From NCBI GenBank assembly GCA_025351745.1, contig JANXVI010000017.1, positions 1-38,795 of the forward strand: a stretch of DNA of 38,795 bases. The letters run 5' to 3'. The stretch's first letter is position 1. Every line of letters starts with the position of its first letter. Origin of the DNA: Rhodoferax sp. GTDB taxonomy: Bacteria; Pseudomonadota; Gammaproteobacteria; Burkholderiales; Burkholderiaceae_C. The notes beneath the pieces are model-generated. The model saw only the letters and a list, made by a program, of their open reading frames with translations, made no database searches and was not told where the DNA came from. Made by a program: the position numbers and the translations under genes. Below are positions 7,983-8,658 of the stretch, in pieces.

Positions 7983-8228
7983 ATGACAGCCGAAGAAATC
8001 CAAAACCTGATCGCCAACAGCATGGCCTGCGAGCTTTGCCGGGTAGAGGGCGACGGCCGCCATTGGTACGCCACGGTGGTCTCCAACACCTTTGAGGGCA
8101 AGCGGCTGATCGCACGCCACCAGCAGGTCTACGCAGCCATGGGCGCGCGGCTTAAAACGGACGAAGTGCATGCGCTGTCGATGAAAACTTTTACGCCCAC
8201 GGAGTGGGCTGCACAAAGCAATGGATGA
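7983..8228 (+). CDS. ibaG: BolA-family protein IbaG
   Basis: This 81-residue protein matches the IbaG/YrbA branch of the BolA family: an alpha-beta fold with VEGDGRHWYATVVSNTFEGKRLIARHQQVY-type core and the conserved KTDEVHALSMKTFTPxEW end. These proteins act with monothiol glutaredoxins in iron-sulfur or acid-stress physiology. The gene sits between the transporter and the murA remnant, the standard mla-ibaG-murA arrangement. Its stop overlaps the start of the remnant by 8 bp. Confidence 0.9.
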   Translation: MTAEEIQNLIANSMACELCRVEGDGRHWYATVVSNTFEGKRLIARHQQVYAAMGARLKTDEVHALSMKTFTPTEWAAQSNG

Positions 8229-8658
8229 GGTGCAGAACTGCGGGGGCGACCTATTGCACGGCGAGGTGCTGGTATCGGGCTCCAAAAACGTCGCTTTTCC
8301 CGAGCTGTGTGCAACCCTGTTGACGGCCGAGCCGCGGCCCCTGCAGGATGTGTCGCGCCTGCAAGACGTATTCACTATGAACAAGCTGATTCGCATCAGG
8401 GTTGTTCGGGCTGAGCAAGACCACGATGGTTCCGTGCGTGTAGACGCCAGCACGAGTAGCGCGCCCAAGACACACTCTGCGCCGGTTAAAACCAGGCGCA
8501 CACATTGCAGAGTGGTGATTGCTGGCCTGGTCGCCAATGGCAAAACTGTGTTGGACCGCATCAACCACCTGGACCGTGGCTGTGGCCAGATGCAAGCCCC
8601 GTTGCGTGGCACCGGTGCCGACCTTGAACAATTCAAAAAATGGCTCCGCCCGCAATGA
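8221..8658 (+). pseudogene. murA: murA remnant with a large internal in-frame deletion
   Basis: The 145-codon frame begins and ends like MurA (UDP-GlcNAc enolpyruvyl transferase), which is normally about 420 residues. The N-terminal part shows LHGEVLVSGSKN (the substrate-binding Lys-Asn pair), PELCATLLTAEP and KLIRIRVVRAEQD. At about residue 100 it jumps to the C-terminal end: [38 protein letters not shown]. Roughly 275 residues are gone, including the catalytic Cys loop and most of both domains, so it cannot be a working enzyme. The join falls near a VKTxRxS-like motif, which in intact MurA resembles the later TDLRAS motif; recombination between those two sites is a plausible cause. The remaining sequence carries further unusual substitutions (for example DRGC instead of DRGY). 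A functional murA must exist elsewhere. Confidence 0.88.

Follow-up and report, generated by a model that had tools for sequence, protein, structure and literature searches.

MurA is an essential cell-wall enzyme that is encoded by a single gene in most Gram-negative bacteria. The window analysed here (the whole stretch of 38,795 bp from a Rhodoferax sp. contig) encoded an open reading frame of only 145 amino acids at the position where relatives keep murA. The locus raises the question of what this short frame is, and which enzyme the lineage could have relied upon when the native gene was broken.

The remains of murA between ibaG and hisG

The short ORF (8221 bp–8658 bp, + strand) was located between ibaG, a BolA family gene (7983 bp–8228 bp, +), and hisG (8669 bp–9313 bp, +). 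Its start overlapped the end of ibaG by 8 bases and its stop codon was 10 bases before hisG. The gene order, ABC permease, ibaG, ORF, hisG and hisD, was that found in relatives, which places the ORF at the orthologous position of a conserved locus. Analysis with the Pfam EPSP_synthase and TIGR01072 (murA) models revealed each of them to match the ORF in two stretches; positions 2–93 of TIGR01072 corresponded to ORF residues 2–93 and positions 372–415 of 416 corresponded to the other end of the ORF. The whole protein scored 74.3 bits against TIGR01072, where the cut-off is 392.7, and so does not qualify as a full-length functional MurA. On the basis of these matches and of comparison with relatives, the ORF was assigned as a relic of the native (Cys-type) murA.

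Genomes of the same genus used for comparison are designated G003, G061 and so on, G000 being the window's own genome. An alignment of the relic with the native murA of G003 and G061 showed an offset of exactly 282 codons (846 bp). The first 279 bases of the relic (8221 bp–8499 bp, +), which encode the N-terminal MurA segment (codons 1–93), aligned with both genes without a gap, and after the deletion approximately 40 C-terminal codons followed in the same frame (8515 bp–8637 bp, +; VIAGLV to FK). The PGGC loop containing Cys115 fell in the missing part, as did the Arg that follows this catalytic Cys/Asp position, which again sets the ORF apart from a functional MurA. The remaining 31 bp before hisG (8638 bp–8668 bp, +) were not present in G003 or G061, whose murA stop codon overlaps the start of hisG. 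These approximately 30 extra bases supply the stop codon and the last six or so residues (KWLRPQ), which are accordingly not MurA sequence. The first-pass annotation had described a murA cut to its two ends by an in-frame internal deletion, with the catalytic Cys loop missing and an intact frame overlapping ibaG, all of which the model matches and the alignment bore out; its estimate of about 275 missing residues was close to the exact figure against G003 and G061, and the MurA C-terminus that it placed at the end of the ORF is there except for the KWLRPQ tail.

The junction (8497 bp–8514 bp, +) joins MRAS to LRAS. In the native murA of both G003 and G061, these motifs occupy codons 92 and 374, respectively, and the two sites share TGCGTGC and TC (9 of 10 bases); in G008 and G056 they are 286 codons apart. 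Recombination at a short repeat, already proposed in the first-pass annotation, is a plausible cause of the deletion, although the junction has mutated since, so that the breakpoint itself cannot be read.

Changes on the branch leading to the relic were counted at positions where G003 and G061 agree. They affected 25 of 121 first, 23 of 125 second and 27 of 92 third codon positions, and comprised 49 nonsynonymous and 26 synonymous changes. Over the same 129 codons, G003 and G061 differed from each other at 8 first, 4 second and 37 third positions. In a 38-codon C-terminal stretch the relic showed 11.5–12.5 nonsynonymous differences to each of six relatives, compared to 0 to 1 in four pairs of intact copies. 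This is strong evidence, from the pattern of substitution, that both remaining ends of MurA have lost constraint and that the ORF is a decaying pseudogene. Third-position changes on the relic branch still exceeded those at first and second positions, and part of the branch therefore appears to have been under constraint, the gene being first constrained and later free. The open frame is not remarkable in itself, as a simulation with the deleted G061 sequence (substitutions only, without indels) left the frame free of stops in 35% of runs after 50 random substitutions and in 21% after 80. This was the only half-deleted native copy met with in the analysis.

Elsewhere in the window, the region between hisD and an aminotransferase gene (14,522 bp–15,670 bp) contained approximately 2.3 kb more DNA than in G003 (11,083 bp–14,456 bp). 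A portion of this DNA, including a HAD hydrolase frame (12,504 bp–13,160 bp, − strand), was common to G061 and the rest was not; a PIN-domain ORF followed at 13,986 bp–14,456 bp. A tRNA-Thr (TGT; 31,295 bp–31,370 bp) was the sole RNA gene found in the window. Two short dispersed repeats were also noted: L148:11335–11425 had 42 match rows in the window's own genome, and L147:10950–11003 had 16, one of them at 19,460 bp–19,507 bp of the window.

Two types of MurA in the genus

The 103 genomes of the genus were searched with a divergent MurA from G012, hereafter the Asp-type. This type was present in 28 genomes, at 83–100% identity to the query; native copies aligned to the same query over their full length at approximately 36–40% identity. 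A further 64 genomes gave only weaker matches (native-like) or fragments, and 11, including that of the window, gave none. The catalytic motif PGGDVIGRRRLDTH, with Asp in place of Cys115, was found in all 28 Asp-type copies and in 6/6 copies from other genera of the family, whereas the native motif PGGCAIGSRPVDQ had Cys in each of the 31 native copies looked at. Along with Asp at position 115, the Asp-type copy of G003 keeps the other MurA motifs SGNKNA, VRTS, ATDQM, DIRAG and ERGYE. A third MurA-like gene (G042:C1:1122156–1123439), with 34% identity to the Asp-type query, was seen in G042, which consists of a single contig and carries native murA as well.

The hisG locus was found in 27 of the 28 Asp-type genomes. 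Native murA was full-length between ibaG and hisG in six of these (G003, G047, G049, G051, G052 and G061) and gone in 20, where 7–52 bp were left between the two genes; the remaining locus was cut by a contig end. The genus thus contains both genomes with the two copies and repeated loss of the native one. In the five native-loss genomes of three contigs or fewer (G001, G007, G045, G046 and G050) the Asp-type gene was always present, and no other MurA above the model cut-off was found in them.

Ten genomes other than the window's gave no match to the query. Four of these (G065, G070, G072 and G097) had lost native murA with no Asp-type gene found, G097 among them being rated 97% complete; four had no hisG found, in G053 hisG was cut, and in G060 the native C-terminus was at a contig end. 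The four native-loss drafts group with Asp-type carriers, three of them nested among the carriers and G097 branching first in its clade, and for this reason the absence of the Asp-type gene from them is likely to reflect missing assembly. In all, native loss was seen at the locus in 25 genomes (20 with the Asp-type gene, G000 and these four drafts). Five of the 25 gave no Asp-type match, somewhat more than the approximately two misses expected from one minus completeness, summed by hand; recently shared genes may assemble badly, which could account for the shortfall. Beyond the genus, six of 80 Burkholderiales records other than genus-identical ones were also without murA between ibaG and hisG (L220, L241, L257, L223, L230 and L248; Mitsuaria, Paucibacter, Roseateles and three uncultured), with a gap of about −3 to 124 bases.

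The window's genome is a draft of 5.1 Mb in 498 contigs, 91.7% complete with 6.85% contamination. A search of it for the EPSP_synthase family returned one 691 aa frame on contig 33 (C33), which we take to be AroA, and no full-length murA; the murA model, run at E 10 over the whole draft, added the relic alone. The Asp-type protein query gave 0 matches, and a search of the draft with the DNA around the Asp-type copies of G003 and G061 recovered no Asp-type gene. The counterpart of the G003 site, on C373, was continuous and empty. At the counterpart of the G061 site, acpS, pdxJ and recO (read by eye) were present on C442, after which the gene order differs, and C442 ends approximately 90 bases into another gene (uvrC, read by eye). 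The translation of the acpS-like gene on this contig (G000:C442:124–531, read by eye) was only about 42–47% alike to that of G061, with adjoining DNA approximately 81% identical, and it is perhaps another replaced gene. The Mur ligase family had six matches in the genome, four of them on contig 72, so the pathway fed by MurA is present. The first-pass annotation had argued that a second murA must exist elsewhere and that a full-length copy should be sought; the Mur ligases and the Asp-type genes carried elsewhere by the nearest relatives in the tree speak for the argument, but the 498-contig assembly yielded no such copy.

Loss of the native gene and probable movement of the Asp-type gene

An organism tree was built from the permease, IbaG, HisG and HisD (1015 columns) for 58 taxa, consisting of 55 of the 103 genomes of the genus and three outgroups; a first tree had 54 taxa, to which four genomes were added for the second. 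The window grouped with G003 with a support of 97 (93 in the first tree). Next to this pair were G061 and a native-loss clade, the order of which differed between the trees with a support of 74 in each, and several deeper nodes had support below 50. Under either order, it is most simply supposed that the ancestor of the window, G003, G061 and the native-loss clade had both genes. By eye, native loss could be placed at five points of the tree, each delimited by a clade with good support: the window; G085-G022-G072-G012-G065-G117-G081; G023-G064-G087 (the G087 locus being cut); G097 with the G059 group; and G112-G092. The relic is one of several native losses in a genus where a divergent MurA occurs as well, a setting that could not be seen from the window.

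The synonymous divergence between G003 and G061 was similar for the two genes (dS 0.76 for the Asp-type and 0.71 for the native copy) and dN/dS was low for both (0.061 and 0.035, respectively). For these reasons, both types of murA appear to have been kept under selection since before G003 and G061 split.

The tree of Asp-type genes departed in places from that of the organisms. The Asp-type proteins of G047 and G052 were nearly identical (93% DNA identity) although the two genomes are apart on the organism tree; G112-G092 lay beside the G085 group, and G012 did not join G117-G081. The 12 Asp-type loci looked at fell into several context groups, with G003, G061, G064 and G089 sharing none with the others, as judged from crude gene calls in which some frames were on the wrong strand and the murA was itself overlooked at some loci. 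As the Asp-type tree conflicts with the organisms and the surroundings differ, the Asp-type gene has probably moved between lineages. Ten neighbours of Asp-type genes were scanned in Pfam and all were ordinary. In G061 (L148:5489–10131) the Asp-type murA is flanked on one side by an ankyrin-repeat protein and on the other by a cyclase that carries a MASE8 domain and gives matches to Pycsar cyclase models.

Relatives of the Asp-type gene were also found outside the genus. In a sample of the family, 8 of 399 genomes matched at E 1e-100 with 83–86% identity, of which two belonged to this genus and six to three others. In a sample of the phylum, 13 of 398 genomes matched at E 1e-80. Nine of these belonged to one genus of another class (50–52% identity) and had the same Asp motif; we guess them to be alphaproteobacteria, perhaps Bradyrhizobium. 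The other four (39–40%) had Cys. The best rows from a plasmid collection were MurA on Bacteroidota records at approximately 46%, the Parabacteroides one of which also has Asp, and those from a phage collection were three phage records from human faeces at 45–46%. Of the relatives located beyond the family, the gene of the nine genomes and the Bacteroidota MurA were the nearest. A search of virus contigs gave three pattern matches, none of them a relative.

Explanations for the relic and comparison with known systems

Taken as a whole, the ORF is very probably a pseudogene of the ancestral Cys-type murA that likely became dispensable as the lineage already held an Asp-type MurA. The ancestral gene at the ibaG–hisG position was cut by the in-frame internal deletion and then drifted. 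A lineage already carrying the second, divergent MurA, as the nearest relatives in the tree do, would have left the native gene free to go; here a short-repeat deletion would have taken its core in frame, and in other lineages it was lost completely. Judging from these relatives, the window's organism itself likely still holds the Asp-type gene. By analogy, the Asp-type enzyme presumably performs the MurA reaction: a review (PMC4790336) gives E. coli MurA with Cys115 changed to Asp as fully active and not inhibited by fosfomycin, and natural Asp-type MurA as occurring in intrinsically resistant bacteria. On that analogy, the second MurA could sustain the pathway by itself, which would free the native gene.

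That the relic frame is still open could be due to chance, to its being young, or to the disturbance of hisG that a stop or frameshift would bring. It is possible, though on balance doubtful, that the last of these is the sole reason, the frame being translated only to avoid polar effects and the peptide being unused, an arrangement compatible with displacement by the Asp-type gene. The overlap of the murA stop with the hisG start in G003 and G061, where translation is probably coupled, and the short distance from the relic stop to hisG favour it; this is a deduction from layout, several relatives (G008, G009 and G047) have no such overlap, and the simulated frames make an open frame likely by chance as well.

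It is improbable that native murA was lost with no Asp-type MurA in place, the function being served by another, unrecognised enzyme or by none. Such a course would fit the window's draft genome, in which no full-length MurA of any type was found, the four other native-loss drafts and the third MurA-like gene of G042. It fits poorly with the Asp-type gene being present in 5/5 native-loss genomes of three contigs or fewer and in the nearest tree relatives, and with the EPSP_synthase family search of the draft, which gave the presumed AroA frame on C33 only.

Still less probable is that the ORF encodes a small protein kept by selection for a new role. The first-pass annotation had entertained a short expressed product, and the open frame, the retained overlap with ibaG and the 279 bases without an indel would suit one. 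Both ends of the relic have relaxed constraint, though, and a search of 40 relatives gave matches to long murA frames only, apart from one frame truncated at the end of its contig; the 7–52 bp left at the 20 native-loss loci are too short for such an ORF, and chance leaves the frame open often enough in the simulation. The suggestion of an expressed product was thus not supported.

An assembly or binning artefact, with an intact murA collapsed or two contigs misjoined, deserves hardly any credence despite the fragmentation and contamination of the draft, as a misjoin would leave ends as conserved as in relatives, whereas both ends carry many nonsynonymous changes where intact copies hardly differ, and the DNA identity of the flanks to G003 and G061 was 76–85%, within the range of other contigs compared (C373 to G003, 71–86% for the main pieces; C442 to G061, 81–82%).

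When a truncated 'murA' is met at its usual position, the assembly is not necessarily at fault. The presence of native-only, both-copy, relic and replaced states in one genus offers a ready comparison for the exchange of an essential enzyme, and lets one ask if, in nature, a sensitive enzyme gives way to one that is presumably insensitive to the drug. Our tentative suggestion, which we would put at somewhat under even odds, is that the genus, one of environmental betaproteobacteria, is midway in replacing an essential antibiotic-target enzyme: a presumably fosfomycin-insensitive Asp-type would spread between species, coexist with the native type for a time and see it lost repeatedly, the window holding a half-decayed native copy, a step that is normally not seen. 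Exposure to natural phosphonate antibiotics as the driver is speculation. Replacement of MurA in this group was not described in the titles and abstract openings among the literature matches listed.

The kinds of event involved, gene displacement and an Asp-type MurA, are already known; their repetition in one genus, together with a fossil intermediate, is the interesting part. Compared to MurA of the Cys115 type (UDP-GlcNAc enolpyruvyl transferase, TIGR01072), the relic is homologous at both ends and occupies the locus where relatives keep the gene, but is without 282 codons and the catalytic loop, and its score is far below the family cut-off. Like known Asp-type MurA, the candidate replacement in the relatives has Asp where native copies have Cys; here, as read from sequence, genomes of one genus carry it either in addition to a Cys-type gene or instead of it. 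Xenologous displacement of an essential gene is a known kind of event, and the same states are seen here, namely a divergent homologue, genomes with both copies and then native loss; what differs is that the losses fall at five places in one genus and that one copy is half decayed.
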